Assembly: GCA_028283765.1 (NCBI GenBank)
Contig: JAPWJY010000002.1
Location: 1 to 64,000 of the forward strand
DNA from: Parvibaculaceae bacterium
Lineage (GTDB): Bacteria > Pseudomonadota > Alphaproteobacteria > Parvibaculales > Parvibaculaceae
Length of the DNA: 64,000 bases
Direction of reading: 5' to 3'
Positions 1 to 13,667 of this stretch are shown in pieces; the stretch's first letter is position 1, and each line of letters begins with the position of its first letter. A program made the position numbers and the translations under genes. A model generated the notes under the pieces. That model did not search any database, was not told where the DNA came from, and saw nothing but the letters and a program-made list of their open reading frames with translations.

Positions 1-1243
1 CCGCAAGCTTCGCGTCATAGGCCAGCATGGCGTCCAGCAGGACGTCGCAGCCTGCGGCGCAATCCTCCGGCGTGGCCGATTCCGCCTCATTGTGGCTGAG
101 ACCATTGAGGCAGGGCACGAAGATCATCGCCGTGGGGGCCACCTCGGCCAGATAGACCGAGTCGTGGCCCGCGCCCGACACGATGTCGCGCCAGGGCAGT
201 CCGCGCTCAACCGCCGACTGACGGACCATCTCGACGCATTCCGGCGCGAAGGCGACAGCGGGCGTGTAGATCACTTCCTTGAACGCCAGTTCCAGCCGGT
301 GCCGGGCCGCGATTTCCGTGACGGCACCAGCGAACTCGTCCGCCATTTCCGCCAGAATCGCATCGTCGGGATTTCGCAGGTCGACGCACATGAAGACCTT
401 GCCGGTGATGACATTGCGGCCGTTGGGCTCGGCGGTGATGAATCCCACCGTGCCGCGGCCGAGCGGACCCGCGCCCAGCGCGATCCGCTCGACAAGCTGG
501 ATGATTTCGGCGGCCCCCAGCAGCGCATCCTTGCGCGCCTCCATCGGCGTGGTGCCGGCATGGGCATCCTGCCCGGTCAGGCCGATTTCGTACCAGCGCA
601 TGGCCTGCGTGCCGGTGACGACGCCGATGGTCTTCTCCTCGTTTTCGAGGATCGGACCCTGCTCGATATGGAGTTCGAAGAAGGCCGAGACGGGACGCCC
701 GCCGACCGGGTCGCTGCCCTCATAGCCGATGCGCTGGAGCTCATCGCCGAGGGTCAATCCCCGCTTGTCGGTGCGGGCCTTGGCCTCATCCATCGAGATG
801 GTGCCCGCGAACACGCCGGAGGAAACCATGGCGGGCGAAAAGCGCGAGCCCTCCTCATTGGTCCAGACCGCCAGCTCGACCGGCGCGCGGGTGACATAGT
901 TCAGGTCATTGAGCGTGCGCATGACCTCAAGTCCCGCCAGCACGCCCAGCACGCCGTCGAACTTGCCGCCTGTCGGCACCGTGTCGAGATGGCTGCCGGT
1001 CATGATCGGCGGCAGGCTGTCGTCCGATCCGGCGCGGCGGGCGAAAATATTCCCCATCTGGTCGATGCGGATGGTGCATCCGGCCTCCTCGCACCATTTG
1101 ATGAAAAGGTCCCGGCCCTGCCGGTCCTCGTCCGTCAGGGCCAGACGGCAGACGCCGCCTTGCGGCGTGCCGCCGATTTCGGCCATTTCCATCAGGCTGC
1201 GCCACAGCCTGTCACCGTCGATCTTCAGATTTGTCGGTTTCAT
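1..1243 (-). CDS. M20-family N-carbamoyl-amino-acid hydrolase / beta-ureidopropionase-like (3' end off the left edge)
   Basis: Reading leftward from ATG at 1243, about 414 codons are open to the window edge, close to the usual 410-420 aa, so only the last few residues are missing. The M20 metal-binding segment SHLDTVPTGGKFDG puts H85, D87 and D96 in place. It is followed by the WTNEEGSRF catalytic-glutamate segment, the FELHIEQG motif and a late GAGHDS motif, the set seen in L-N-carbamoylase, beta-ureidopropionase and allantoate amidohydrolase. Known family reaction: hydrolysis of an N-carbamoyl amino acid to amino acid, CO2 and ammonia in the cytoplasm. Its start overlaps the stop of the preceding guanidino-modifying gene by ATGA, so the two are probably translationally coupled. 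Inference: it removes the ureido group made by its neighbour. The exact substrate cannot be read from sequence. Confidence 0.88.
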   Translation of the reverse strand, partial: MKPTNLKIDGDRLWRSLMEMAEIGGTPQGGVCRLALTDEDRQGRDLFIKWCEEAGCTIRIDQMGNIFARRAGSDDSLPPIMTGSHLDTVPTGGKFDGVLGVLAGLEVMRTLNDLNYVTRAPVELAVWTNEEGSRFSPAMVSSGVFAGTISMDEAKARTDKRGLTLGDELQRIGYEGSDPVGGRPVSAFFELHIEQGPILENEEKTIGVVTGTQAMRWYEIGLTGQDAHAGTTPMEARKDALLGAAEIIQLVERIALGAGPLGRGTVGFITAEPNGRNVITGKVFMCVDLRNPDDAILAEMADEFAGAVTEIAARHRLELAFKEVIYTPAVAFAPECVEMVRQSAVERGLPWRDIVSGAGHDSVYLAEVAPTAMIFVPCLNGLSHNEAESATPEDCAAGCDVLLDAMLAYDAKLA

Positions 1244-2112
1244 AGGGCATCTCGCTTCAGGGCCTGGGACAGGCAGTGGGGGCCACCGCCGCCGAGCGTG
1301 AACATGGAGAGATCGGGATCGAACACCTCGATGCCGTGCGCGCGCATCCGGGGATTGAGATCGGTGTTCGCCAGCGTGGAGAGCACACGGTCGTTCCCGA
1401 GGCTGACGATATTGCAGCCGAGCGCCATCGAATCCTTGTAGGAAACGGGGATAATTTCATATCCCTTCGCCTTCAGCAGGTCGATGAACCAGGGCTGGTG
1501 CGCATCCTCGACAACGGCGACGAGCTTGTCGTTGATAAAGCCGACCGAAACGTCGAGATGCACGAAATAGGGCGGGAACGGCACGGCATAGGCTTCCCAG
1601 CCTTCCTTGCGGAACCAGCTGCAAACCTGCTCGGCGCCCGCCTGCTCGGAGCGCTCGCCGCCATAGCCGCAGAGCACGAAACCGGGCTTCACCACCATGA
1701 AATCGCCACCCTCGAAATGGCCCGCCGTGACCATGTTCCAGATCGGAATATTGTGTTCCTGATAGAATTTGAAGGTGAGCGCGTAATCCCCGCGCCGGTA
1801 GACCGTCTGCAGCATGGTGATGACCGCGCCGAACGGCGTCATCACGCTCGAGTCCCGCGCGAACACGCTGTATTTCAGTTCCGGCTGGGCATTGAGCAGA
1901 TGGGTCTTCACCCCCGCATGTTCATAAATATCCACCATTTCGCGGTGCTGGCTCATCGCCGCCTGCGCGTCGAACCTGAGCCCCAGCGCAAGCGTCTGGC
2001 GCGCGACGGCGCTGACGGGCCGCCATTCGAAATAATCGGGTGCCCCCAGCAGCACATGGCGGAGCACGCCCGTTTCGGAATCGAGCCCCCAGGGAATATT
2101 GGCCTCACTCAT
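1240..2112 (-). CDS. Guanidino-group-modifying enzyme (amidinotransferase / dimethylargininase-like hydrolase)
   Basis: 290 aa, a single beta/alpha-propeller domain of the guanidino-modifying enzyme superfamily (arginine deiminase, DDAH, amidinotransferases). Visible landmarks are FARDSS near residue 85, EGGDF near 155, HLDVSV near 205 and a C-terminal GGGGPHC with candidate nucleophile Cys280. The catalytic Asp/Glu, His and Cys are therefore all present. Members either hydrolyse a guanidine to a ureido product or transfer an amidino group. The short length and the adjacent carbamoyl hydrolase favour a deiminase-type hydrolase, but this is inference. The gene overlaps both neighbours by ATGA (2109-2112 and 1240-1243), so it sits in the middle of a tightly coupled operon. 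Substrate unknown; arginine, agmatine, guanidinobutyrate or guanidinopropionate are possibilities. Confidence 0.85.
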   Translation of the reverse strand: MSEANIPWGLDSETGVLRHVLLGAPDYFEWRPVSAVARQTLALGLRFDAQAAMSQHREMVDIYEHAGVKTHLLNAQPELKYSVFARDSSVMTPFGAVITMLQTVYRRGDYALTFKFYQEHNIPIWNMVTAGHFEGGDFMVVKPGFVLCGYGGERSEQAGAEQVCSWFRKEGWEAYAVPFPPYFVHLDVSVGFINDKLVAVVEDAHQPWFIDLLKAKGYEIIPVSYKDSMALGCNIVSLGNDRVLSTLANTDLNPRMRAHGIEVFDPDLSMFTLGGGGPHCLSQALKRDAL

Positions 2113-2723
2113 GACAGAACCTCATAATGCGCCTCGACCGGCGCGCCGGCATTGATGCAGACGATGTCTTGCGGACAGGCGGAAAAGACGACGACGCAAT
2201 CCATCTCCGCGCGAAACAGCACGTGATCGCCGGGTTTTGAAACCGGCTCCTTCCATTCGATGTCGCCTTGCGGCGTGAAGGGAATGTTCATCCACAAATT
2301 GAAGGGCGAGGGCACCTCGGGCGCTTCCAGTCCGAGATCGGCCAGCCCGTTGCGCAGATTGTCGGCGCAATTGTCGTGGAAATCCTCCACGCCCAGCCCC
2401 TGATAGCGATAGATGTCGCAGGCCGCGATCAGCGTGTCATGGATGCCGGGCGAGCTATCCTCCAGCAGGGTCAGGATGGGTCGCCGCCGGTTCGTCACCA
2501 GCACGTCGCCGGGACGCGGAATAATCCGGTCGATGGCGGCGCGCATATGCTCCATCGACAGAAACTCGCTGAGATCGTGCAAGTTGAAGGCCCATGTATC
2601 CACGACCTGATGGCCATGGGTGTTGATGACCCGGATGGTCTGGCCCCTGGCCAGTTTCGCGGCCCGGCCCTTTCGAGGGGGAATCCGGCAGAGCCCGCCC
2701 CTATCGCCCTCATGTCCACTCAT
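2109..2723 (-). CDS. DUF1989 / urea carboxylase-associated family protein
   Basis: 204 aa, essentially all one DUF1989 domain. The conserved pattern is clear: VVDTWAFN near residue 40, the LSMEHMR segment, NRRRPILTLLEDSSPGIHDTLIAACD in the middle, then DNCADN, NLWMNIPF and FSACPQDI. The Cys and His positions in these motifs are those thought to bind metal. Two DUF1989 paralogues encoded with 'urea carboxylase' have been shown to act as carboxyguanidine deiminase in guanidine breakdown. Only one copy is present here and no carboxylase is in view, so the same reaction should not be assumed. It lies 45 bp after the SDR gene and overlaps the guanidino-modifying gene by ATGA, which points to a role in the same nitrogen-compound pathway. 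Confidence 0.85.
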   Translation of the reverse strand: MSGHEGDRGGLCRIPPRKGRAAKLARGQTIRVINTHGHQVVDTWAFNLHDLSEFLSMEHMRAAIDRIIPRPGDVLVTNRRRPILTLLEDSSPGIHDTLIAACDIYRYQGLGVEDFHDNCADNLRNGLADLGLEAPEVPSPFNLWMNIPFTPQGDIEWKEPVSKPGDHVLFRAEMDCVVVFSACPQDIVCINAGAPVEAHYEVLS

Positions 2724-2768
2724 ACCGTCACCTTCTCCTCAATATCGGCCAATTCCACGCCTCGCGCT

Positions 2769-3509
2769 TCACATGGCCGCGCCGCCATTGGCGCCGATGG
2801 TCTGTCCGGTGATGTAACTGCCGCCCGGCCCGACCAGAAAGCGGATCACGGCGGCGATTTCCTGCGGCTGGCCGATCCGGCCCAGCGGATTGCCCGCAAG
2901 CTCCGACGCCTTGAGATCGTCGGGCGTCGCCTTCCAGCCCAGCAATGGCGTATCGACCGGCCCGGGCGCGATGGCATTGACGAGAATGTCCGGCCCGAAC
3001 TCGCGCGCCCAGCACCGTGCCATGGCCGCCGCCGCGCTCTTGCTTGCGCAATAGGCGGCATGGCCCTCGCGGCCAAGCTGGGCCAGTTCCGAACTGGTGG
3101 TGATGATCCGTCCACCCCGCCCAAGCCGGCGCATCGCGCGCACGGTTTCCCGCACGATCAGGAAGGTGCCGGAGACGTTGATGTTGAGAATGCGGTTGAA
3201 ATCCTCAAGCGAGGTTTCAAGCAGCGGCGCATATTCGAAGATGCCCGCCAGATGAGCCAGAATGTCGATGCCGCCGAAGCGCTCTTCCACGGCGGCCACG
3301 CCCGCTATCACCGAAGCCTCGTCGGTGACATCGACCCGGAAGGCGGCGGTATTCCCGCTCTCGAAGCCCTCGGCCGTCTCTGCGGTGTCGACCCGGTCGA
3401 ACAGGGCAACCTTTGCCCCCGCCGCCACAAGCGCCTGCGCCGTTGCCCGCCCGATGCCGCTGGCCGCGCCGGTGACGATCGCGACCTTGCCGCCGAGTTC
3501 AGCGCCCAT
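2769..3509 (-). CDS. Short-chain dehydrogenase/reductase (SDR)
   Basis: 246 aa classical SDR. The N-terminal cofactor motif TGAASGIG is at residues 14-21, an acidic residue follows beta-2 (ALFDRVD, suggesting NAD preference), the NAG-like motif reads HLAG, and the catalytic Ser and Tyr-Lys are seen as TTSSE and YCASK. It ends in the usual GANGG segment. The family oxidises alcohols or reduces carbonyls. It is the first gene of a leftward operon with DUF1989, the guanidino-modifying enzyme and the M20 hydrolase, and diverges from a LysR regulator 128 bp away. Inference: it oxidises an alcohol or hydroxyl intermediate of the same compound. Confidence 0.88.
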   Translation of the reverse strand: MGAELGGKVAIVTGAASGIGRATAQALVAAGAKVALFDRVDTAETAEGFESGNTAAFRVDVTDEASVIAGVAAVEERFGGIDILAHLAGIFEYAPLLETSLEDFNRILNINVSGTFLIVRETVRAMRRLGRGGRIITTSSELAQLGREGHAAYCASKSAAAAMARCWAREFGPDILVNAIAPGPVDTPLLGWKATPDDLKASELAGNPLGRIGQPQEIAAVIRFLVGPGGSYITGQTIGANGGAAM

Positions 3510-3637
3510 TCACAACTCCCTGCACACTACTCCACCAGCCTCCTCCAAATTCATATCGAAATAAATGTTGATTATTAGAAGGATACATTGAACATCATAA
3601 ATGAATTGCCATGGGCCGCAGCGGCCCGGAGGAACCC

Positions 3638-4561
3638 ATGCGGCGGCTGGACAATATCGACCTCAGATTGCTGCGCGTCTTCGTCACGCTGGTCGAGGCG
3701 GGAAGCTTCGCCGACGCCCAGATCGCACTCAATCTTTCCCAGTCCACCCTCAGCACCCATCTCGCCACGCTGGAGAAGAAGCTGGGCGGCACGCTCTGCA
3801 TCCGGGGGCGGCGCGGCTTCAAGCTGACCTCCTTCGGCGAGGCGACATGGACCGCCGCCCAGAAGCTTTTCACCGACATCGACTCGTTTCAGGAGCGCGT
3901 GGGCGAGCATAACGGCCAGCTTGTCGGGCGGCTGCGCGTGGGCGTGGTGGATGGCATCGTCACCAATCCGGTGCTCGGGCTCCAGCACGCCATCCGGCGC
4001 TATGTCGACAAGGCGGAAAGCGTCTATATCGACCTTGAACTGGGCACGCCCCATCTGCTGGAGCAGGCGGTGGCGGATGGCCGCCGCGACGTGGTGATCG
4101 GCCCTTTCTCGCAGAAGGCCCCGGGCGTCACCTATGTGGCGCTGCACCGCGAGCCCCAGCGGCTCTATTGCGGCAGGGGACATGAACTGTTCGGCCTCCC
4201 GGCCAGGAACATCACCTCCGCCATGATCGAGCAGTCGCTGTTCTCGGTGCGCGCCTACCGCCAGCTCGACGATCTCTACCGGGTCGACCATCCCCGCGCG
4301 AGCGGGCAGGTGGTGCAGATGGAAGCGCAGGTCATGATGATCCTGTCGGGCCGCTTCATCGGTTTCCTGCCGGGCCATATCGGCGACGTCTGGCTGGCGC
4401 AGGGGCAGATGCGGGAGATAAAGCCTGAAACCTACCAGTTCCTCTCCACCCATTTCGCCGCCTACCGGCGCAGCGACGCCAGCCGGCCGGTCATCCGTTC
4501 CTTCGTGCGCGAACTCAGCCAATATGCGGGCGAAATGCGCAAGACAGCAGACGCGGGCTGA
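3638..4561 (+). CDS. LysR-family transcriptional regulator
   Basis: 307 aa. The N-terminal winged helix-turn-helix covers residues about 5-65 (LDNIDLRLLRVFVTLVEAGSF, then ...LSQSTLSTHLATLEKKLG), followed by a LysR substrate-binding domain. The ATG at 3638 is chosen because GGAGGA lies 4 bp upstream; an in-frame ATG at 3611 has no such site. It is divergent from the SDR-DUF1989-guanidino operon, the usual arrangement for a LysR activator of the opposite operon. The 128 bp between them is AT-richer (about 3540-3605) and probably holds both promoters. A second LysR gene follows 13 bp later. The effector is probably a pathway intermediate (inference). Confidence 0.9.
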   Translation: MRRLDNIDLRLLRVFVTLVEAGSFADAQIALNLSQSTLSTHLATLEKKLGGTLCIRGRRGFKLTSFGEATWTAAQKLFTDIDSFQERVGEHNGQLVGRLRVGVVDGIVTNPVLGLQHAIRRYVDKAESVYIDLELGTPHLLEQAVADGRRDVVIGPFSQKAPGVTYVALHREPQRLYCGRGHELFGLPARNITSAMIEQSLFSVRAYRQLDDLYRVDHPRASGQVVQMEAQVMMILSGRFIGFLPGHIGDVWLAQGQMREIKPETYQFLSTHFAAYRRSDASRPVIRSFVRELSQYAGEMRKTADAG

Positions 4562-4574
4562 AGGGAGGAAGATC

Positions 4575-5531
4575 ATGGGCATCGAAGACAAGCTGCTGCA
4601 ACAGCTCGACCTCAACCTGCTGCGCACCTTCCACGAGATCGTGCGCCGGGGCGGCATCGGTGCCGCGGCCCGCGTGCTCAACCGCCGCCAGCCCGCCATC
4701 AGCCTCGCCCTGAAGCGGCTGGAAGACCATTTCGGCACCGCCCTTTGCATCCGCTCCCATCAGGGCGTCAGCCTGACGCCTGCGGGCCGCGTGCTGGCGG
4801 ACACCTGCGCCCAGATATTCGAGGACCTTCGCCGCGCGCCCCATGCCGTCGCCCAGGCCACCGGCGCGATCGAAGGCCATATCAATATCCGTCTCATTTC
4901 CAGCATCGTCTGCCCGGAACTGGATGAATCCATCGCCTCCCTGCATCGCCGTCACCCCGGCGTCGAGTTCCGCCTTGAGGTCAGCCCGTGGCGTCCCATC
5001 GTTTCATCGGTTTCCCGGGGCGAGGCGCCCATCGGCATCGCCTGCGACAGCGCCCCCCGCCCGGAACTGCGCTACGAGCCCCTGATCCGCGAAACCCAGC
5101 AGCTTTATTGCAGCCGCTGGCACCCGCTTTTCGGCCGCCAGATCAATGATCCCGGCGTGCTCGCGGGCGAGCGCTTCGTCACCACCGGCGCGGATGAGCC
5201 AGACGACGTGCGCACCTTCCGCCAGCGCTACGGGCTCGGCGCGCGCGTCTCGGGCGAGGCCCAGGACCTTGAGGAGGCCAAGCGCCTGATCCGCAACGGC
5301 GTCGGGCTGGGCTTCCTGCCCATCGTCGTCGCCGGGCATGACGGTAACCGCGACCGGCTCTGGCCGCTGCTGCCGCCGGGCCTGCTGCCCGGCTATCACG
5401 TCTATCTGATCACGCGCCCTTCTGTTTCCCCGGACCTCGTCAGCCAGCTCTTTCTGGACGAAATCCGCCGCCGCCTGCTGGCGAGAGGCGCACCCGGCCA
5501 GGTCATTGATATAATCAATGATCCTGATTGA
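4575..5531 (+). CDS. LysR-family transcriptional regulator (second, tandem)
   Basis: 318 aa. The winged helix at about 10-70 contains LDLNLLRTFHEIVRRGGIGAAARVLNRRQPAISLALKRLE, and the LysR co-inducer-binding fold follows. The start at 4575 is set by the strong GGGAGGA site 7 bp upstream. It lies 13 bp after the first LysR gene and reads in the same direction, so they are probably co-transcribed. The two proteins share their overall layout, including an RETQQLYCSRWHPLFG-type segment matched by REPQRLYCGRGHELFG in the first, so they look like diverged tandem paralogues. They may respond to different intermediates or form a cascade (inference). Confidence 0.9.
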   Translation: MGIEDKLLQQLDLNLLRTFHEIVRRGGIGAAARVLNRRQPAISLALKRLEDHFGTALCIRSHQGVSLTPAGRVLADTCAQIFEDLRRAPHAVAQATGAIEGHINIRLISSIVCPELDESIASLHRRHPGVEFRLEVSPWRPIVSSVSRGEAPIGIACDSAPRPELRYEPLIRETQQLYCSRWHPLFGRQINDPGVLAGERFVTTGADEPDDVRTFRQRYGLGARVSGEAQDLEEAKRLIRNGVGLGFLPIVVAGHDGNRDRLWPLLPPGLLPGYHVYLITRPSVSPDLVSQLFLDEIRRRLLARGAPGQVIDIINDPD

Positions 5532-5605
5532 CCGTTTGCGGCTTCTGGATATGGCCGGATTGGGAAAGGATGAGGAATCTCGTTTTCCTTATCGATGGAC
5601 GGTCC

Positions 5606-6397
5606 ATGAGCATCCCTCTTCACAAGCTTGGCGGTCTCTGGCGGCGTTCCCTGATCGCCTGGCCTGACGGGCGGGAGGATCGCTCGACCAGCGTCTTCTG
5701 GTTGCAGGGCCCCCGGCACTATATCGACCTGCGCCAGCCAGCAGGCCGCCCCTCCTTCGAGACGGCCACCTGCCTCGATGCGCTTGACCGCGATCAGGTC
5801 GGCTGGCTTGCCGGACAGGAAGGCTTCGCCGGGCTTTTCAGCATTGAAGACGGCATCGGCGAATGGCAGCGCGCGCTCGATTTCCAGCCATGGAGCGGCA
5901 CGGCGGACAAGGGCACCCTGGCCTTCGAGGGCGATGTGCTGGTCGAGAACGGCATCGCCATTCCCTATCTCGAACACTGGCATCAGGCGCTCAGCCCCGC
6001 GCCGGCCACCGCCTTCGTGCTGGAAGAGGCCGGCACCGGCCGCAAGGGCTTTCTCGTTCGCCATGGCGACAGCTTCATGTATGCGCGCGACCGCGCCGTG
6101 ACGCTGCCGCTCCCCGGCGCGGACAACTCGCCCATGGAGGCTGCCTCCCTCAAGGCCATCGTCGCGGCGGCTCCTTTGGCCGAGGCCCGCGCCATGATCG
6201 ATTGCGAAATCTCGTTTGGCGAAATCGGGGCGGATGGCTGGCGCATCGCCCACTCCAGCCTGCCTTTCCGCGAGGGTACGCCGCTCGCCCCGGACATCGA
6301 CGTGGCATCCCGGACGCTCTCCATCGCGGACATATCCGCTGATGGAACGCCGCAACGTCGCCTGTGGAAGATCACGGATCAGGAGGAACGCGCATGA
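5606..6397 (+). CDS. Unrecognised cytoplasmic protein, Trp-rich, in the LysR/2OG-oxygenase operon
   Basis: 263 aa from the ATG at 5606; in-frame alternatives are ATG 5570 (preceded by GGGAAAGG) and TTG 5528, which would overlap the upstream LysR stop. No signal peptide or membrane segment is seen. The sequence has recurring aromatic motifs (GLWRRSLIAWPDG, VFWLQGPRHYIDLRQP, YLEHWHQALSP), suggesting a beta-rich fold. The WLQ...YIDLR pattern faintly recalls the fungal Hri1 group, but I would not assign it. Its TGA stop overlaps the next gene's ATG, so it is coupled to the 2OG-Fe(II) oxygenase. A binding or accessory role for the oxygenase is possible but untested. Confidence 0.7.
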   Translation: MSIPLHKLGGLWRRSLIAWPDGREDRSTSVFWLQGPRHYIDLRQPAGRPSFETATCLDALDRDQVGWLAGQEGFAGLFSIEDGIGEWQRALDFQPWSGTADKGTLAFEGDVLVENGIAIPYLEHWHQALSPAPATAFVLEEAGTGRKGFLVRHGDSFMYARDRAVTLPLPGADNSPMEAASLKAIVAAAPLAEARAMIDCEISFGEIGADGWRIAHSSLPFREGTPLAPDIDVASRTLSIADISADGTPQRRLWKITDQEERA

Positions 6398-7440
6398 ACA
6401 CGGCAACCGCCTTCACCTCGCTTCCGGTCATCGACATCAGCGCGCTTTATGGCAATGATCCCGCCGCCCAGCGCCGCGTGGCGGATGAGCTCGGCCATGC
6501 CGCGCGCCATGTCGGCTTTCTCTATGTCACCGGCCACACTGTACCCGAGGCCGTTTTCGACGAGATGCTGGCGGCGACACGCGCCTTCTTCGCCCTGCCT
6601 CTTGAAGAGAAGATGAAGGTCTATATCGGGTTTTCGACCAACCATCGCGGCTATGTGCCGGAAGGCGAGGAGGTTTTCGCCGGTGGCACCAGGGACAAGA
6701 AGGAAGCCTACGACCTCTCGATCGACCTCTCCGCGCAGGATCCGGATTATCTGGCGGGCAACCGGCTTCTCGGACCCAACCAGTGGCCCGGCACGCCCGG
6801 TTTCCGCGAACCCGTCTCGGCCTATTACAACGCCACCTTCGAGCTGGGCCGCACGCTCTTCCGGGGTTTCGCCATGGCGCTCGATGAAGCGCCGGATTAT
6901 TTCGACAAATATATCACCCGGCCGCCGAGCCAGCTTCGCCTCGTTCACTATCCCTATGATGGCGAGGCCAGCGACAGCGTGGGCATCGGCGCGCATACGG
7001 ATTATGAGTGCTTCACCCTGCTGCGCGCGACCACGCCGGGCCTTGAGGTGATGAACAGCAAGGGCGAGTGGATCGACGCGCCGCCGGTGCCGGGGGCCTA
7101 TGTCATCAATATCGGCGACATGCTGGAGCTGTGGACGAACGGGGAATTTCTCGCCACCTCGCACCGCGTGCGCAAGGTGAAGGAGGAGCGCTATTCCTTC
7201 CCGCTGTTCTTCAATGTGGACTATTACACGAAGGTGATGCCGCTCGCGAAGCTGCAAAAGCCGGGCGAGCCGGAGCGCACGCCCCTGATCGCCGGCGAGC
7301 ACCTGTTCGCCCAGACCGGGCAGAGCTTCACCTATCTGAAAAAGCTGATCGCCAGCGGAGAGTTGCGCCTGCCTGAAACAGCGGTTGCCCTTTCCTCTTT
7401 CGGGGCGGAAGCGCGGCTGAACGAGAAGGCAAAGGCGTAG
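6394..7440 (+). CDS. Isopenicillin-N-synthase-like 2-oxoglutarate/Fe(II) oxygenase
   Basis: 348 aa. The N-terminal DIOX_N region begins LPVIDISALYG. The double-stranded beta-helix holds the iron ligands H201-x-D203 (in GIGAHTDYECF) and H257 (SHRV), plus the R266-Y-S268 motif that binds the 2-oxoglutarate carboxylate. Start chosen at 6394, with AGGAGGAA upstream and an ATGA overlap with the preceding gene. Relatives hydroxylate or cyclise small molecules; ethylene-forming enzyme and plant homoarginine hydroxylases of this superfamily act on guanidino amino acids and release guanidine. A link to the guanidino-processing operon next door is therefore attractive, but it is inference. Confidence 0.87.
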   Translation: MNTATAFTSLPVIDISALYGNDPAAQRRVADELGHAARHVGFLYVTGHTVPEAVFDEMLAATRAFFALPLEEKMKVYIGFSTNHRGYVPEGEEVFAGGTRDKKEAYDLSIDLSAQDPDYLAGNRLLGPNQWPGTPGFREPVSAYYNATFELGRTLFRGFAMALDEAPDYFDKYITRPPSQLRLVHYPYDGEASDSVGIGAHTDYECFTLLRATTPGLEVMNSKGEWIDAPPVPGAYVINIGDMLELWTNGEFLATSHRVRKVKEERYSFPLFFNVDYYTKVMPLAKLQKPGEPERTPLIAGEHLFAQTGQSFTYLKKLIASGELRLPETAVALSSFGAEARLNEKAKA

Positions 7441-7452
7441 TCAGGCTCCGGT

Positions 7453-8064
7453 TCAGGCGCGGCCTATGCCCAGATGATCCCAGACGATGGTCCGCGCATC
7501 GGCCATCAGTTCCTGGATGTCGCTCCAGGGCCGCGTCATCGAGACCATATAGAGGCCGTCGAGATAGGCCGAAATGAAGATGGCGCTCTTGAGCGGATCA
7601 ACCTTGCGGAAAGCGCCGGATTGGATGCCCGCCTCGATACAGGAAAACAGGATCTCGCGCTCCTGCCCGTAGAGCGTCCTGATCTGCGCGTCGATGGGGG
7701 CCTTGCCCGGCGTGGAAAAGCTGTAGTCGATGATGATCTTCACCATCTTCTGCAAGGTCGGGAACAGTTCGAGATTGATCTTGAACCATTCGTCCAGTGA
7801 CTGCACCGGATCGGTAATCACGTTGGTCCGCGTGCGATAGCGCTCCAGCGCGCCCTGGATAGCATATTCGATCGCCGCCTCGAACAACACTTCCTTGCTC
7901 TGAAAATAATAGTAGATCAGCGCCACGTTGACGCCGCAGGCGGCCGCGATCTCGCGGATCGTCACGCCGGAAAAATCCTTCCGCGCGAAAAGCTCCAGTG
8001 CGGTCAGCAAAATATCGTGCGACCGGATTTCGGGCGCCAGCCTCCGGGGCGTTTTTCTGGGCAT
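7453..8064 (-). CDS. TetR/AcrR-family transcriptional regulator
   Basis: 203 aa from the ATG at 8064 (MPRKTPRR); a TTG at 8100 would add 12 residues. The N-terminal helix-turn-helix reads ILLTALELFARKDFSGVTIREIAAACGVNVALIYYYFQSKEVLF, a textbook TetR pattern. The C-terminal ligand-binding half is helical, with no family-specific motif I recognise. It is 54 bp downstream of the ABC ATPase gene on the same strand, so it may be the last gene of the transporter operon. It converges on the 2OG oxygenase, whose stop is 12 bp away. It likely represses the transporter or itself. Confidence 0.87.
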   Translation of the reverse strand: MPRKTPRRLAPEIRSHDILLTALELFARKDFSGVTIREIAAACGVNVALIYYYFQSKEVLFEAAIEYAIQGALERYRTRTNVITDPVQSLDEWFKINLELFPTLQKMVKIIIDYSFSTPGKAPIDAQIRTLYGQEREILFSCIEAGIQSGAFRKVDPLKSAIFISAYLDGLYMVSMTRPWSDIQELMADARTIVWDHLGIGRA

Positions 8065-8118
8065 GTGGGTGATCGCCGCCTGACTTCTGATCTCGATCAA
8101 CGCACTATAGAGGGCACC

Positions 8119-8958
8119 TCAGGCAAGACCAAGGGAAAGGCTTGCGCCTGAGGGCATGGCGGGCGTCTCGCCGGTGCCGGCCTCAGCCTCCACCGCTGGC
8201 TTGCGCCCGGTTTCCTGCCGCCACGAGTCACGCACGATGCGCGGCCGCACATCGAAATCCTTCGTGATCGTCGCGCCGAACCGGTGTTGCGCCTGCGGGT
8301 CGTTACGATATTTGTCGACGGCGATGACACGCGTGCCGAGCAGGAACGCTTCCGACAGATCATGCGTCACCATCACGATGGTCATCGCATTTTCCTCCCA
8401 CAATTCGCGCACGAGAACGTGCATCGCCTTGCGGGTGCCGGGATCGAGCGCGCCAAATGGTTCGTCCAGCAACAAAACCTTGGGCTGCATGATCAGGGCC
8501 TGCGCGATGGCCAGCCGCTGCTGCATCCCGCCGGAAAGCTGATGGGGATATTTGTTGGCGGATTCGGCGAGGCCGACCCTTTCGAGCAGGGCCATGGCGC
8601 GGGCTTTCAGCGCGCGCCTCTTCGCGCCGAACAGGCGGCCCAGAAAAGCCGAACCCTGCCACTCCGGCCCCAGCATCACATTGCCGAGCACGGTCTTGTG
8701 CGGAAACACCGAATAGCGCTGGAAAACCACGCCCCGGTCCTTCATCGGCTCGGCCGCGATCGGCTCGCCGTCGATCAGGATGCGGCCGCGCGTGGGAATT
8801 TCCTGACTGAGCAGCATGCGCAGCAGGGTGGTCTTGCCCGCGCCGCTCGGCCCCACGATGACAAGAAACTCATGGTCCGGCAGCTCGATGTTGATCCTCT
8901 CAAGGATCGTGATGTCGCCATATTCCTTCCAGACGTCATCGATCAGAATGTGCGTCAT
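8119..8958 (-). CDS. NitT/TauT-type ABC transporter ATP-binding protein
   Basis: 279 aa. Walker A GPSGAGKTT is at about 36-44, the Q-loop FQRYSVFP near 80, the signature LSGGMQQR near 140, Walker B VLLLDEPFGALD near 160 and the switch His in VTHDLSEA. The order and spacing are those of SsuB/TauB/NrtD-type importers. A C-terminal extension of about 50 residues after the conserved domain is rich in Ala, Gly and Glu. It starts 2 bp after the permease stop, so the two are coupled. It hydrolyses ATP at the inner membrane to drive import of the ligand delivered by the downstream-encoded binding protein system. Confidence 0.92.
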   Translation of the reverse strand: MTHILIDDVWKEYGDITILERINIELPDHEFLVIVGPSGAGKTTLLRMLLSQEIPTRGRILIDGEPIAAEPMKDRGVVFQRYSVFPHKTVLGNVMLGPEWQGSAFLGRLFGAKRRALKARAMALLERVGLAESANKYPHQLSGGMQQRLAIAQALIMQPKVLLLDEPFGALDPGTRKAMHVLVRELWEENAMTIVMVTHDLSEAFLLGTRVIAVDKYRNDPQAQHRFGATITKDFDVRPRIVRDSWRQETGRKPAVEAEAGTGETPAMPSGASLSLGLA

Positions 8959-8960
8959 GC

Positions 8961-9779
8961 TCAGTTCTCCCGGACATTGTTCCATGGGAAGGCCGCGATC
9001 GAGAGCCGTCTCAGGGCATAATCCATGATGAAAGCCAGCAGCGTGATCCAGGCCACATAGGGCAGGATGACATCCATCGCCAGATAGCGCCGCACAAGGA
9101 AGATGCGATAGCCAAGGCCGCCCTGCGAGGCGATGGCTTCCGCCGCGATCAGGAAGAGCCATGCGGCCCCGAGCGACAGGCGCAGCGCGTCGATCAGGCG
9201 AGGCAACACCTGCGGCAAAACCACATGTACGATCATCTGCCATGTCGAGGCGCCCAGCGTCTGCGCCTTGATGATCTGCTCGCGCGGCAGTTCGGACACG
9301 CGAATGGCAATGTCGCGCATGATGAAGGGCGCGATGCCGAAGACGATCAGCACGATCTTGGAGAATTCTCCCAGGCCGAAAACGATGAAGAGAATAGGCA
9401 GGATCGCAAGCGGTGGAATGAGCGAAAGCACCGCGAGAGCAGGACCGAAACTCGACCGCAGATAGGGAATGAAGCCAACCAGCACTCCGCCGACGAGCCC
9501 CAGAACGAGCGAGATGCCGAGGCTCGTGAACAGCCGCGCAAGGCTCAGCCAGGTGTCGAGCCAGAACAATGTCTCGCCGCTCAACGGGTCGGTCTGCCCC
9601 GCCATCCGGCCCATGGCCGCGATGAACGAGGCAGGCGAGGGCATCAGCTTGTCGTTGGGATTGATGGCGAGTCTTGCCTGCGAACTGGCAAGATAGACCG
9701 CAGCAATGAGTATCAGCGGCAAGGCGCCAAGGATGATCGTAGCGCCCTTGCCAGGCGCATAATTGACAATGCGTTTCAT
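8961..9779 (-). CDS. NitT/TauT-type ABC transporter permease
   Basis: 272 aa from the ATG at 9779 (MKRIVNYAPGKG). It has an N-terminal membrane helix (about 15-35) and a core of five further hydrophobic segments, with the BPD_transp_1 EAA loop recognisable as EIIKAQTLGASTWQMIVHVVLPQVLPRL. It belongs to the SsuC/TauC/NrtB group. The gene sits between the substrate-binding and ATPase genes in the order typical for this family, 25 bp after the binding-protein stop, and ends 2 bp before the ATPase start. Confidence 0.92.
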   Translation of the reverse strand: MKRIVNYAPGKGATIILGALPLILIAAVYLASSQARLAINPNDKLMPSPASFIAAMGRMAGQTDPLSGETLFWLDTWLSLARLFTSLGISLVLGLVGGVLVGFIPYLRSSFGPALAVLSLIPPLAILPILFIVFGLGEFSKIVLIVFGIAPFIMRDIAIRVSELPREQIIKAQTLGASTWQMIVHVVLPQVLPRLIDALRLSLGAAWLFLIAAEAIASQGGLGYRIFLVRRYLAMDVILPYVAWITLLAFIMDYALRRLSIAAFPWNNVREN

Positions 9780-9804
9780 GCTGCGGCCTTCGTGACTGAC
9801 GTTT

Positions 9805-10890
9805 TCAGAGCTTGCCGTCTGCGGCCATCTTGGTGAAAGAGGCGTCGAGGCGCAGCTTGACGTTACCCTTGTCGCCCAGCACCGATCCATCCGGCATCTG
9901 GATGCCGATGGCGTCGACGCTCGTCGCACCCTGACCGAACAGGCCCTGCTGGAACGAGAAGGTGCGGATCATGTCCCAGTTGGACTTGGTCTTGGGCGAC
10001 GTCATGAAATCATAGGCTGACTGCGCCGTGTGGAAGAAATGCGTGGTCTTGACCTGCGATTCAAAGGCCGGCACGTCCCCGCCCATGGCCTTCGCCATGA
10101 CGTCGACCATCTTCTTCGAGGTGTCATCGCCCTTCATCCACTGGGCCTGCGCTTCGTAATAGGCCCCGATCAGCGCCTTGGCGAAGGCGGGATCCTTCTT
10201 GATCGCGTCCGTCTTCATGATCAGCGCATCCATGATTTCACCGGGAATCTTCGATGAATCGAACAGCACATGCGTGCCGGGAACACCCTTGATCATGTCG
10301 TCGGTCATGGGCTTCCACGACGCCACGTTCTGGATGGTGTCGGTGGTCAGATAGGCCGAGGCGATGTCGGCGTCGGAGACGTTGACCGTCTTGACAGAGG
10401 CGAGGCCTGGCATCCCGGCCATGGTCAGCGCGCGCTGAAGCATGTAGTGGGAAACGGTGTATTCGACGAGATAGACCGTATCGCCCTTGAGTTCGGCAAT
10501 GGACTTCGCCTTCTTGGAGAGAATGACGTCGTTGCCGTTGGAATAATCGTTGAGCAGAACGATCGAGCTGTCGACGCCGCCGGCGGCGGGCATCGTCAGG
10601 GCATCCATTCCGGCTACGCCGACCGCATCGAGATCGCCCGCGATGAACTGGTTGATGCCACCAACATAATCGTTGGTCTGGATCATCTCGATATTGATGC
10701 CATACTTGTCGCCCCACTTCTTCAACAGCCCGGCGTTATTCATCCAGGCGTAGGGCATGAAGCCGACATAGACGACATAGCCAAGCTTGTAGGTTTTCTT
10801 TTCCGCCGCGAACGCCTGCCCGGACCCGACGGTCAGAAGCGAAAGCGTCAACAGCATGGCCATCGATACAGCGCGAAAAAGCAGTCTCAT
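9805..10890 (-). CDS. ABC transporter substrate-binding protein, 'urea carboxylase region' type
   Basis: 361 aa. The signal peptide is MRLLFRAVSMAMLLTLSLL... with cleavage near AFA-AEKK at about residue 29. The mature protein is a type II periplasmic-binding fold. Segments such as YVGFMPYAWMNNAG, INQFIAGDLDAV, MDALTMPAAGGVDSS and NDYSNGND match my memory of the family named for its place next to urea carboxylase genes (TIGR03427). That family is often labelled a urea transporter but may carry guanidine-related ligands. The start at 10890 follows a GAGG-type site. Upstream are a sigma-54 promoter (10938-10953) and a 14-bp palindrome in the leader, so expression is probably nitrogen-controlled. 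The ligand is inferred to feed the 1-7 kb enzymes. Confidence 0.9.
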   Translation of the reverse strand: MRLLFRAVSMAMLLTLSLLTVGSGQAFAAEKKTYKLGYVVYVGFMPYAWMNNAGLLKKWGDKYGINIEMIQTNDYVGGINQFIAGDLDAVGVAGMDALTMPAAGGVDSSIVLLNDYSNGNDVILSKKAKSIAELKGDTVYLVEYTVSHYMLQRALTMAGMPGLASVKTVNVSDADIASAYLTTDTIQNVASWKPMTDDMIKGVPGTHVLFDSSKIPGEIMDALIMKTDAIKKDPAFAKALIGAYYEAQAQWMKGDDTSKKMVDVMAKAMGGDVPAFESQVKTTHFFHTAQSAYDFMTSPKTKSNWDMIRTFSFQQGLFGQGATSVDAIGIQMPDGSVLGDKGNVKLRLDASFTKMAADGKL

Positions 10891-10906
10891 CGTCAACCTC
10901 GCCGGG

Positions 10907-10920
10907 TGTAAGCGGTTACA
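10907..10920. promoter_or_regulatory. 14-bp operator-like palindrome in the ABC-transporter leader
   Basis: TGTAAGCGGTTACA has perfect 5-bp arms (TGTAA/TTACA) around GCGG. The TGTAANCGNTTACA shape is typical of LacI-family operators. It lies between the predicted start site of the sigma-54 promoter (about 10927) and the start codon at 10890, where a bound repressor would block elongation. No LacI-family gene is in the window, so the cognate protein is unknown; the TetR or LysR proteins are alternatives. Confidence 0.5.
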
Positions 10921-10937
10921 TAAGTTATGGAGATATG

Positions 10938-10953
10938 TGCAAGCGATGTGCCA
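10938..10953 (-). promoter_or_regulatory. Sigma-54 (RpoN) promoter of the ABC-transporter operon
   Basis: Read leftward, the site is TGGCACATCGCTTGCA: the -24 TGGCAC and -12 TTGCA elements with exactly the required spacing (GG to GC). It differs from TGGCACG-N4-TTGCA at one position. The predicted start is near 10927, giving a leader of about 37 nt before the substrate-binding gene. Sigma-54 promoters need an enhancer-binding activator such as NtrC, which fits nitrogen-source control. Confidence 0.75.
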
Positions 10954-11008
10954 TGCGCAGACGCCGGAGGTCGGAGCATGGAGCGTGTCAAACAGGCCAA
11001 AATCGGTA

Positions 11009-11028
11009 TTTTCCCGTGCTTCGGAAAA
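11009..11028. promoter_or_regulatory. Upstream inverted repeat, candidate enhancer site
   Basis: TTTTCC and GGAAAA arms flank 8 bp. The centre lies about 90 bp upstream of the predicted sigma-54 start, the usual distance for an enhancer-binding protein. It does not match the NtrC consensus, so the activator may be a different one. Low confidence, from symmetry and position only. Confidence 0.3.
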
Positions 11029-11320
11029 GGAATGGAACGGCATGAGTCCGGCATCGTGAAGCTGGTCAGGCCCCGCATGGGAAAAACAGCGACCGGAAAG
11101 CAAGCCATCCTGTTAAACGCATGTTTAGGACGCTAGAAGGCGCCCGGGGTGCCGTCAAGAATAAAATGTGCAAAAAATGCGCATATCCATATTTGCCCAA
11201 ATAATCGCCATAAATATGGAAAATGGTCTTCCGGCCACGGATGATGAAGCCCCATTCTCCCGGCGACAACCGGGCGGAGAAATGGCATAGAGACGGCATG
11301 TCGGCGGGTGGAGAACAGCC
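11029..11320. other. Non-coding gap upstream of the FAD oxidase
   Basis: No convincing gene on either strand. The stretch 11155-11225 is AT-richer than its surroundings (AATAAAATGTGC, CATATCCATATTTGCCC) and probably carries the promoter of the rightward FAD-oxidase gene at 11321. No recognisable riboswitch was seen. Confidence 0.5.
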
Positions 11321-12733
11321 ATGAAAAAAGACGATCTTGAAGCGCTCGGCGCTCTTCTCGGCAGCGGGAAGGTGCGCACCGACGAAGCGCTGCTGGATGC
11401 GCGCGCCCATGATTACTGGGCGGCCAGCCATCTGCGCCGCTGGCGCGGAGAACGCCCCGCCCTGCCCGGCTGCGTGGTCCAGCCCCATGAAACGGCCGAC
11501 GTGCAAAAGCTGCTCGCCTTCGCCAATGAACGCGGCATCGCCGTCATCCCCTTCGGGCTCGGCAGCGGCGTCTGCGGCGGCGTGATCGCCTCGCCCGATG
11601 CGATCCTGCTCGACATGTCGGCCATGAACCGCATCCGCGAAATCGACGAGATCAACCTGCTTGCAAGCTTCGACGCCGGCAAAAACGGGCTCGAAGCCGA
11701 GGAAGCCGTCGCGGCGCTTGGCCTCACCACCGGCCACTGGCCCCAGTCCATCGGCGTCAGCAGCGTGGGCGGCTGGGTCTCCACCCGGGCGTCGGGCCAG
11801 TTCTCCACCGCCTATGGCAATATCGAGGACATCATCTACGCCATCGAGGCCGTGCTGCCGAACGGCGAACTGGTGAGGCTGGGCAAGGCGCCGCGCGCGG
11901 CGGCCGGACCCGACCTGCGCCATCTGCTGATGGGCGCGGAAGGCATCATGGGCGTCGTCACCGGCGTCACGCTGTCCCTGCGCCGCAAGCCGGAAGCGCG
12001 TGGCTACAGCGCTTTTTATGCCGGCAGCATGGAACAGGGCTTCGAGGCCCAGCGCCGTATCATCCAGAGCGACTGGCGGCCGCCGGTCATGCGCCAGTAC
12101 GACCACCCGGAGACCGCCCGCAATTTCCCCGACCACGCCCAGGGCGAAAAAGCCGTGCTGCTGATGGTCCATGAGGGGCCGCAAGCGCGCGTCGAGGCCG
12201 AAATCGCCGACATATCGCGGATCGCCCTGGCGGCAGGCCTTGAACAGGCCTCCCCGGCCATTTCCGAACTATGGCTCGCCAAACGCAACCATGTCCCCAC
12301 ATGGACGGAAGCCTTCGAGCACCGGATCGTCGCCGATACCGTGGAAATCTCCGGCAAATGGACCGACATAGCCCCGATCTACCATGCAGCGATTGCAAGC
12401 CTCGGGGAGGTGCCGGGCATCGTCATAGCCTCGGCGCACAGCTCCCATGTCTATCGCTCGGGGATCAACCTCTACTTCACCTTCGCCGTGCTGCTGGACA
12501 AGGTCGAGGCCATGGAACCCGCCTATTTCGAGTGCTGGCGGCGCATCCTTGAAGCGACGGCGGCCCATGGCGGCGGCATCGCCCACCATCATGGCGCGGG
12601 CCGCATCCGCAAGGACTTCATCGTCTCGGATCTCGGGATTTCAGGCGTCGACCTGCTACGCCGCCTCAAGGACGCCATCGACCCGCACAGAATCATGAAC
12701 CCCGGCAACCTGCTGCCGGACCGGCCCCTCTAA
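11321..12733 (+). CDS. FAD-binding oxidase, alkyldihydroxyacetonephosphate-synthase-like
   Basis: 470 aa. An N-terminal FAD-binding type 4 (VAO) domain covers about 45-225, with the flavin loop PFGLGSGVCGGV and the segment SVGGWVSTRASGQFSTAYGNIEDI, closely like the SIGGW..TRASG signature of AGPS. The C-terminal half has the FAD-oxidase C domain and the HHHGAG motif that in AGPS carries active-site histidines. Relatives include AGPS, D-lactate and D-2-hydroxy-acid dehydrogenases. No ether-lipid partner genes are nearby, so oxidation of a 2-hydroxy acid is as likely as ether-lipid synthesis. It is a single-gene unit, diverging from the ABC operon. Confidence 0.85.
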   Translation: MKKDDLEALGALLGSGKVRTDEALLDARAHDYWAASHLRRWRGERPALPGCVVQPHETADVQKLLAFANERGIAVIPFGLGSGVCGGVIASPDAILLDMSAMNRIREIDEINLLASFDAGKNGLEAEEAVAALGLTTGHWPQSIGVSSVGGWVSTRASGQFSTAYGNIEDIIYAIEAVLPNGELVRLGKAPRAAAGPDLRHLLMGAEGIMGVVTGVTLSLRRKPEARGYSAFYAGSMEQGFEAQRRIIQSDWRPPVMRQYDHPETARNFPDHAQGEKAVLLMVHEGPQARVEAEIADISRIALAAGLEQASPAISELWLAKRNHVPTWTEAFEHRIVADTVEISGKWTDIAPIYHAAIASLGEVPGIVIASAHSSHVYRSGINLYFTFAVLLDKVEAMEPAYFECWRRILEATAAHGGGIAHHHGAGRIRKDFIVSDLGISGVDLLRRLKDAIDPHRIMNPGNLLPDRPL

Positions 12734-12755
12734 ATCCCCGACATCCGTCCGGCCC

Positions 12756-12791
12756 AAAAAAAACGCCTGTACCGGATAACCGGCACAGGCG
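12756..12791 (-). terminator. Rho-independent terminator of the small-protein operon
   Basis: Read leftward, a 12-bp stem (CGCCTGTGCCGG paired with CCGGTACAGGCG, one G-U pair) with a TTAT loop is followed by eight T residues at 12763-12756. The T-run is only on the minus strand, so it ends the leftward transcript carrying the two small genes. Confidence 0.85.
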
Positions 12792-12881
12792 CAAAACCCT
12801 GAAGCAAAGCTCGCGGGGTTCAAGTTTTCCGGGGTCCACAGGGAGGGTGGGACACCGGAGAGGGAAACAGAATCTCTCGGC

Positions 12882-13004
12882 TCAGAGAGCGACCAGACCA
12901 GCCGTTTCAGCAACGAGCGCCACGGCATAAACCGTCAGCGCAATGGTGATGACCCGGGCCGTGAAGCGTTCGGCGAGGCTGCCGTTCAGGCGAAACTTGT
13001 TCAT
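12882..13004 (-). CDS. Small single-span membrane protein (40 aa), second of a tandem pair
   Basis: 40 codons from ATG 13004 to TGA 12882, preceded by GGAGTG at 7 bp. A basic, polar N-terminus (MNKFRLNGSLAERFTAR) is followed by one hydrophobic helix from about residue 18 to 40. A strong terminator lies 90 bp downstream. It resembles its neighbour at 13047-13166 in the ...TARVITIALTVYA / ...VARAVIYGYALSL segment, so the two are probably paralogues. I do not recognise the family. Function unknown; a small membrane regulator or stress peptide is a guess. Confidence 0.55.
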   Translation of the reverse strand: MNKFRLNGSLAERFTARVITIALTVYAVALVAETAGLVAL

Positions 13005-13046
13005 GATGACACTCCATCAATCTTGAATTCGGGAGGGGATTACCCC

Positions 13047-13166
13047 TCAGACGCTGTACTGCGTGGCAACATGGATCATCAGCGACAGCGCATAGCCATA
13101 GATCACGGCGCGGGCCACATACTGGAGGGCGGCGCGGGGCATAAACTTGCGAGCGATTGTCGTCAT
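13047..13166 (-). CDS. Small single-span membrane protein (39 aa), first of a tandem pair
   Basis: 39 codons from ATG 13166, with GGAG 8 bp upstream (GGAGATCGAACC-ATG). The N-terminus MTTIARKFMPRAALQY is basic, then a hydrophobic segment VARAVIYGYALSLMIHV runs almost to the end. The second small gene starts 42 bp downstream, and the pair has its own rho-independent terminator, which supports real expression. No homologue is recognised. Upstream lies an AT-rich stretch before the divergent padR gene, whose metal-type regulator could control it (inference only). Confidence 0.55.
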   Translation of the reverse strand: MTTIARKFMPRAALQYVARAVIYGYALSLMIHVATQYSV

Positions 13167-13600
13167 GGTTCGATCTCCTATTTCAAGCATTCGCTTGGGG
13201 CAGAGGCTTGAGCTTTTAAGATCCGGCCTTCCGTTTCCGATCCAGATATTGCTCTGGATCCCGGCTTGACCGGCCTTCGAGCGCTTTCCCCGCTGCCGAT
13301 GAGCAAGAGATAGATCACCCATGCTTAAAAAACAATGAACAAAACAAAAAATATTCAGTCTTCACCGTTCATGTTGCTGCGTTGCAACAAATATGGCCAG
13401 AATCCGGCTAGAATCGCCAAAATTTCAGGGATACGTACCTTCGCAAATGCCATTCTCTCCATGTTGCTCCGCAATAATCAGCACAAACCAAGTGGACGTA
13501 ATGACCGGTTTTTACCAGTTGGTCATTTTTCTGCGACCTTCTGGCACACATCTTCCCGCCTTTTCAGACCGGATTCCCCACCGGAATCTTCAAAGGTCCC
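13167..13600. other. AT-richer intergenic region between the small-protein operon and padR
   Basis: No gene seen. It contains two copies of CATGTTGCTSCG (13370-13381 and 13460-13471), the first followed by GTTGCAAC dyad symmetry, and a hairpin-like ATGACC...GGTCAT (13501-13526) followed by TTTTT. The A/T-rich tract at 13325-13352 probably holds the leftward promoter for the small proteins. The role of the repeats is unknown. Confidence 0.45.
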
Positions 13601-13652
13601 TTGACTTCGATATATCAAGATATATCTTTACCCCGTATCCAAGATATATCTT
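13601..13652 (+). promoter_or_regulatory. padR promoter with GATATATC operator repeats
   Basis: A -35-like TTGACT at 13601-13606 runs into three GATATATC copies (13609-13616, 13619-13626, 13643-13650). The last two lie inside identical palindromes AAGATATATCTT at 13617-13628 and 13641-13652. The first palindrome covers the expected -10 (TATCTT). PadR regulators commonly bind such ATAT-rich dyads and repress themselves. The padR start is 16 bp further on. Confidence 0.65.
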
Positions 13653-13667
13653 AAGAAAGGACGAGAG

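Follow-up and report, generated by a model that had tools for sequence, protein, structure and literature searches.

The first 64 kb of contig C6 (JAPWJY010000002.1) from a Parvibaculaceae bacterium (GCA_028283765.1, denoted G000; 3.2 Mb in nine contigs) begin with a group of genes that appear to serve the use of guanidino compounds; this whole stretch of 64,000 nucleotides is called the window. Module A consists of genes for an SDR oxidoreductase, a DUF1989 protein, an enzyme of the arginine deiminase/DDAH type (ADI/DDAH-type) and an M20 hydrolase, with a LysR gene (LysR1) divergent from them. Module B (4575-7440) consists of a second LysR gene (LysR2), the MgdL-like gene at 5606-6397 and a 2-oxoglutarate (2OG)-Fe(II) oxygenase gene. 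The genes of an ABC importer are also present (Table 1). Gene content, conservation, gene exchange, catalytic residues and fold were observed directly. They suggest that the region holds two adjoining nitrogen-scavenging modules for guanidino compounds, an explanation that, taken whole with the pathways of both modules, we place just on the likely side of even.

Table 1. Genes of the two modules and the importer (window positions; percentages refer to matches with the named homologues).
Feature	Position	Strand	Evidence
M20 hydantoinase/carbamoylase-family hydrolase	2..1243	-	NF006769 638.3 bits (cut-off 452); TIGR01879 430.9 (204)
ADI/DDAH-type enzyme, probable guanidino-acid deiminase	1240..2112	-	PF02274, PF19420 above cut-off; fold; residues
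DUF1989 protein	2109..2723	-	PF09347 180.2 bits
SDR oxidoreductase SDR1	2769..3509	-	PF13561, PF00106; 54-61% to SDR1 of eight closest loci
LysR1, divergent regulator	3644..4561 (alternative start 3611)	+	73-77% homologue divergent in 8/8 close loci
LysR2, module B	4575..5531	+	Profile match; homologues adjoin MgdL-like genes in L162 (55%), L175 (49%)
MgdL-like, putative N-(hydroxymethyl)guanidine lyase	5606..6397	+	D41, R43 invariant in 9 homologues; mostly beta model
2OG-Fe(II) oxygenase, MgdH-like, putative methylguanidine hydroxylase	6394..7440	+	PF14226, PF03171; residues invariant in 11 sequences
TetR regulator, downstream of importer genes	7453..8064	-	PF00440; 35% to TetR beside Salipiger L206 importer
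Importer ATPase	8119..8958	-	PF00005; 69% to L206
Importer permease	8961..9779	-	TauC-like; 66% to L206
Importer binding protein	9805..10890	-	TIGR03427 404.7 bits (cut-off 333.9); 57% to L206

An earlier note on this DNA had put its genes together in one candidate new pathway. The genes it named were recovered by profile searches: the SDR, the DUF1989 protein, the guanidino-modifying enzyme with its Cys280, the M20 hydrolase, two LysR genes, the 2OG-Fe(II) oxygenase and the ABC importer. The 263-residue product of 5606-6397 was absent from its list. Of the ATGA overlaps said to join the four module A genes, those at 1240-1243 and 2109-2112 exist, whereas 45 bases lie between the SDR and DUF1989 genes. 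The M20 frame has no stop, its C-terminal end being cut at the contig start (base 1); by eye, about five C-terminal residues are absent in comparison with the relative in locus L033. The single pathway itself had to be given up. Homologues of the oxygenase, the second LysR and the 5606-6397 protein sit in guanidine carboxylase loci and resemble the described methylguanidine demethylase, and one pathway for all of these genes was rejected in view of the LysR2, MgdL and MgdH homologues in the guanidine carboxylase locus of genome G031.

Module B is probably a member of this described methylguanidine demethylase system. PMC12508155 describes an operon of Vreelandella boliviensis in which methylguanidine is hydroxylated by MgdH and N-(hydroxymethyl)guanidine is split by MgdL, an activity that requires D49 and R51. 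Module B likewise pairs a 2OG oxygenase with an Asp-x-Arg protein, in which a D41-L-R43 motif corresponds to D49/R51 and both D41 and R43 are invariant in nine homologues. The likeness to the published pair (A0A265DXW6 and A0A265DXP8) was drawn from gene set and residues. No Pfam or NCBIfam model matched the 5606-6397 protein, scanned with a longer start; its predicted structure was confident (pLDDT 92.4) and mostly beta. In the oxygenase, H201, D203, H257 and R266 are kept in 11 of 11 sequences, and we take H201, D203 and H257, together with R266, to be residues of the 2OG-Fe(II) metal-binding type.

Homologues of the 5606-6397 protein occurred in 7 of 398 Pseudomonadota genomes, G000 included, and five of these seven, again including G000, have a 2OG oxygenase homologue no more than 2.5 kb from the MgdL-like gene. 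A guanidine carboxylase was visible in the fetched stretch for two of the five (L176 and L177); genes in fetched stretches were called with a codon-usage caller. In the other two genomes (L179 and L180), the MgdL-like gene lies inside an operon with SDR2, SDR and creatininase-like genes. A search for the MgdL-like gene on plasmids gave no match. G000 also has a second MgdL-like match, spread over two tblastn pieces, at 9123-9856 of L181 (G000:C3:856000-875900), with an MgdH-like gene (45%) about 4 kb away.

The same-family genome G031 brings the genes of module B and of guanidine breakdown together in one locus: LysR2-like (55%), 5606-6397-like (45%) and oxygenase (57%) genes are followed by a TIGR03427-like binding protein, a Guanidine-I riboswitch, a permease, an ATPase and a Guanidine-II riboswitch, and then by a tandem DUF1989 pair, the carboxylase and allophanate hydrolase. 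Compared with the V. boliviensis operon of PMC12508155, the gene set is nearly the same and the gene order is different. For G000, the earlier statement that no urea carboxylase or allophanate hydrolase is in view holds within the window but not for the contig, which carries a carboxylase locus about 5 kb further on. This locus (C6:68.8-77.1 kb) encodes a carboxylase of 1203 residues (TIGR02712, 1854.8 bits against a cut-off of 1303.85), an allophanate-hydrolase-type amidase, another TIGR03427-like binding protein and two DUF1989 proteins in tandem, and it carries a Guanidine-I riboswitch. It corresponds to the guanidine carboxylase pathway (Gca, CgdAB and allophanate hydrolase) and has the DUF1989 and TIGR03427 families in common with the window. 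A TIGR03427-type importer and the guanidine carboxylase pathway are further features that G000 shares with the MgdL/MgdH system of PMC12508155. In contrast to that system, the window pair is separated from the carboxylase locus and stands under LysR2, and the window itself has no guanidine riboswitch. The MgdH-like oxygenase would hydroxylate the methyl group of methylguanidine, the MgdL-like protein would cleave the hydroxylated product to guanidine and formaldehyde, and the guanidine would pass to the carboxylase locus.

Several observations speak against this assignment. No guanidine riboswitch was detected in the whole window at gathering scores or in 1-14000 at E up to 1, and riboswitch control inside the window was rejected on these scans. 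The MgdL loci L175-L177 also had no guanidine riboswitch at gathering score. In addition, Vibrio-type clusters contain oxygenases 51-52% identical to the window's but no MgdL gene, so the oxygenase alone is insufficient to fix the substrate. As a separate observation, an anti-hemB RNA match below threshold was seen in the window at 12756-12852 (minus strand; 30.4 bits, gathering 49.5, E 0.00087).

Module A appears to represent a conserved family of guanidino-compound operons for which no description was found in the open-access literature, among titles listed; the type of reaction is supported by gene neighborhoods and enzyme families. In the ADI/DDAH-type enzyme, D87, E134, D137, H185, D187 and C280 are invariant in 27 sequences, and the Cys, His and acidic residues are presumably catalytic. 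Its model adopts the fold shared by DDAH, ADI and amidinotransferases, with DDAH in complex with citrulline (1h70) as the best match (TM 0.88 by target). The enzyme shares fold and catalytic residues with this superfamily; it differs in scoring far below the curated cut-offs for DDAH (67.9 versus 300) and arginine deiminase (61 versus 414) and in being paired with M20 in many loci. Similarly, module A has one DUF1989 protein in place of the tandem pair of the guanidine carboxylase pathway, and this protein falls below both the CgdA and CgdB models (TIGR03424, 98.9 versus 284.7; TIGR03425, 65.9 versus 205.95).

At E<=1e-25, relatives of the ADI/DDAH-type enzyme were present in 27 of the 387 class genomes searched (G000 included); at E<=1e-30, they occurred in G000, 1 of 36 other genomes of the same genus or family and 1 of 24 further class genomes. 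A contig scan gave 275 pattern stretches and 121 relatives, of which the best 80 were kept. Eight loci matched at 81-84% (five Hyphomicrobium, two 'Proteobacteria bacterium' and G031). In all eight, LysR1 is divergent and the genes run from binding protein, permease and ATPase through SDR2, SDR, creatininase-like and DUF1989 to ADI/DDAH-type; no more than 3 kb separates the ADI/DDAH-type gene from the two SDR genes, the creatininase-like gene and DUF1989. Among 27 mid-distance loci (39-53%), 25 have an M20 gene within 3 kb, on either side and in both gene orders; four of the 27 (L085, L087, L090 and L094) also have a 51-52% oxygenase homologue within this distance. Over the 80 loci, M20 was observed within 3 kb in 26, against about 0.15 expected (a rough figure, based on 10 M20 matches in 9 genomes of about 36.6 Mb). 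The operon genes do co-occur in other genomes, and the refuting outcome named in the earlier note, a lack of co-occurrence, was not observed. Among the examined loci, G031 alone has the complete four-gene set of the window together with LysR1. Around the M20 genes of three of the seven Hyphomicrobium-type genomes (L164-L166), no hydantoinase or pyrimidine gene was seen (L164 and L166 N-termini by eye, L165 by tblastn only).

All nine module A genomes contain the tandem DUF1989 pair, and the carboxylase was present in the three that were inspected (G000, G031 and G428). A rough background by another measure is that 9 of the 192 class genomes scanned, G000 included, have a protein above the TIGR03425 cut-off. 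Since seven of the nine genomes are closely related, this co-occurrence with a guanidine sink counts as about three lineages.

The best functional hint for module A comes from gene exchange. Ureohydrolases take urea off guanidino compounds, and a deiminase together with a carbamoylase would achieve the same outcome in two steps. Three loci of the SDR2-SDR-creatininase type (L196, L197 and L209) have a gene for an agmatinase-family ureohydrolase and lack the ADI/DDAH-type gene; L198 is cut at the contig start, and L206 has neither gene. L199 has a ureohydrolase gene ahead of a group of TIM-barrel, oxygenase, ABC and aldolase genes; judged by eye, this group corresponds to the one that comes after M20 and the ADI/DDAH-type gene in Vibrio and Psychromonas. 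The order of reactions put forward in the earlier note, from guanidino to ureido compound and ammonia and then to amine, CO2 and ammonia, agrees with these conserved neighborhoods. We infer all reactions and substrates, for both modules; in module A, the ADI/DDAH-type enzyme would convert a guanidino group to a ureido group and ammonia, and M20 would hydrolyze the ureido acid to an amine, CO2 and ammonia. Module A would thereby break down a guanidino acid, a process to which the SDR and DUF1989 proteins would also contribute steps.

Some data do not fit this proposal well. M20 adjoins the ADI/DDAH-type gene in only one of the eight closest loci (G031), each of the other seven genomes having one M20 homologue (56-59%) elsewhere, and no M20 gene was found within 3 kb in the 30 alphaproteobacterial loci of the class search or in 45 distant loci, 31 of which matched the query in this test. 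The exchange is not strict either: 4 of the 30 alphaproteobacterial loci have a ureohydrolase gene at most 3 kb from the ADI/DDAH-type gene, and L196 holds a ureohydrolase, DUF1989 and a 37% M20 together.

Additional loci contain related gene sets. A conserved cluster in Vibrio, Psychromonas and one other genome (L085, L087, L090, L094 and L199), composed of genes for an oxygenase, a TIM-barrel protein, an amino-acid-type importer and a class II aldolase, carries either M20 with the ADI/DDAH-type gene or a ureohydrolase gene. M20, DUF1989 (62-63% to that of the window), a cupin-domain gene and an amino-acid-type importer were found in L210, L211 and L212 (Klebsiella oxytoca plasmid CP056540.1), with an agmatinase gene also in L210 and L211; of 53 plasmid records that carry this DUF1989, 19 are from Klebsiella.

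The creatininase-like gene of the relatives raises the question of the substrate. One such enzyme is encoded by Hyphomicrobium facile DSM 1565 (L065). Enzymes of the eight close loci are 50-53% identical to the Pseudomonas putida enzyme, and the one in L033 passes the creatininase equivalog model (TIGR04448, 378.8 bits against a cut-off of 235). Module A could therefore be a creatinine/creatine pathway without creatinase, in which the relatives' creatininase yields creatine, the ADI/DDAH-type enzyme forms N-carbamoylsarcosine and M20 releases sarcosine, our organism starting from creatine. A canonical creatinase (M24) query was unmatched at E<=1e-20 in the nine module A genomes, in a search with no positive control genome. 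We nevertheless regard this pathway as unlikely, because it leaves no role for the SDRs, because G000 lacks the relatives' creatininase and because of a tryptophan residue. In an alignment of 31 rows with several near copies (10 canonical, comprising nine beside an M24 gene and P. putida; 17 SDR-associated; 4 unassigned), Trp174 was present in 10 of 10 canonical, 0 of 17 SDR-associated and 3 of 4 unassigned rows. Trp154 was kept in all 31, and E34, H36, D45, H120 and E122 in all except L206 (H120N); we assume that these seven residues have the roles familiar from creatininase. A branch with 100/100 support separates the canonical rows and L200 from the SDR-associated rows and the three other unassigned ones. 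Whether the SDR type forms a clade depends on the root of the tree, and L209 and L199 are long branches. This split and the missing Trp174 suggest that the substrate may differ from creatinine. Compared with the canonical route (creatininase, M24 creatinase and sarcosine oxidase), the relatives have two SDRs and an ADI/DDAH-type or ureohydrolase gene replacing M24, and G000 has no creatininase passing TIGR04448; the sole creatininase-family protein found there (window 39837-40583, minus strand) scores 87 bits. An open-chain or different guanidino compound is therefore probably imported in our organism, via the 8119-10890 importer. An M24 protein 60% identical to a creatininase-associated M24 protein was noted at 13004-14200 of L046 (G257:C1:4500-24400), 2.5 kb from a 52% ADI/DDAH-type gene.

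Elsewhere, creatininase-like matches at E<=1e-50 occurred in 8 of 369 genomes of another class; SDR genes lie beside six of them (in L195, one SDR and no SDR2) and beside neither L199 nor L200. Of 19 plasmid records with a creatininase match, 13 were examined. The SDR-creatininase operons vary in their oxygenase, which is either a fatty-acid-desaturase-family protein or an NtaA/DmoA-type flavin monooxygenase (L206). Desaturase-type operons L179 and L194 also encode an isochorismatase-family protein, a lactonase-like enzyme and an MgdL-like protein; L180 has no evident lactonase-like gene and L195 no MgdL. The differing oxygenases make oxidation of the ring before its opening plausible. We offer, as a speculative and on balance doubtful idea, that SDR2-SDR1-creatininase-like operons form an undescribed route for an oxidized creatinine-like ring (e.g., 5-hydroxycreatinine), of which module A would be a shortened form: an oxygenase (flavin, desaturase or 2OG) and the SDRs would oxidize the ring, the Trp174-less creatininase would open it, and the guanidino part would be deiminated or freed as methylguanidine for MgdL/MgdH. 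The best SDR2 match in G000 (48%) is on contig C3, beside a 37% SDR. L213 (G000:C3:343500-363400) contains a second SDR2-like/SDR-like pair, an importer and a LysR1-like gene (33%) and, farther away, a flavin monooxygenase 65% to that of Salipiger L206.

It is quite unlikely that the ADI/DDAH-type enzyme and M20 of the window serve the arginine transamination route, in which 4-guanidinobutyrate would give 4-ureidobutyrate and ammonia, and then 4-aminobutyrate. Five of 30 alphaproteobacterial loci and 1 of 27 mid-distance loci do have a 5-guanidino-2-oxopentanoate decarboxylase homologue no more than 3 kb away, and the mid-distance loci also have aldehyde dehydrogenase (9 of 27) and aminotransferase (6 of 27) genes at this distance; the decarboxylase neighbors point to arginine breakdown there, arguing against one substrate for the whole ADI/DDAH-type family. 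However, all three genes are absent within 3 kb in the eight closest loci, which have creatininase-like and SDR genes instead, and the arginine reading may be right for the wider family yet wrong for the window. Another reading makes the 1240-2112 protein a DDAH-like hydrolase or an amidinotransferase with a product other than the M20 substrate. It agrees with the fold matches (1h70, and also amidinotransferases 1jdw and 6u1r) and with the seven close loci without adjoining M20, but is very unlikely given the scores far under the DDAH and arginine deiminase cut-offs, the nearby M20 genes of 25 of the 27 mid-distance loci and the exchange with ureohydrolase genes.

As to the importer, its binding protein is 45-49% to those of four other (methyl)guanidine loci, versus 57% to that of Salipiger L206, where the importer genes run on into genes for a flavin monooxygenase, an SDR-type creatininase, SDR2 and SDR and are accompanied by a TetR gene. 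This closer similarity, a single case, weakens the possibility that the importer belongs to the carboxylase locus. From it we infer that the importer serves module A or both modules, an assignment against which it counts that one operon stands behind it.

The two modules bear on gaps stated in PMC12508155, namely where methylguanidine comes from in nature and what becomes of other guanidino compounds; methylguanidine sources other than abiotic formation from creatinine are given there as unknown. If true, the oxidized-ring route would be an enzymatic source of methylguanidine. The conserved SDR-SDR-creatininase core with its interchangeable endings (the ADI/DDAH-type enzyme with or without M20, or a ureohydrolase) provides a short list of assayable enzymes, and module A places an ADI-like subfamily and a DUF1989 subgroup in a functional context for the first time. 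In addition, genes annotated as creatininase in an SDR setting may act on a substrate other than creatinine, and such annotations should be read with caution.

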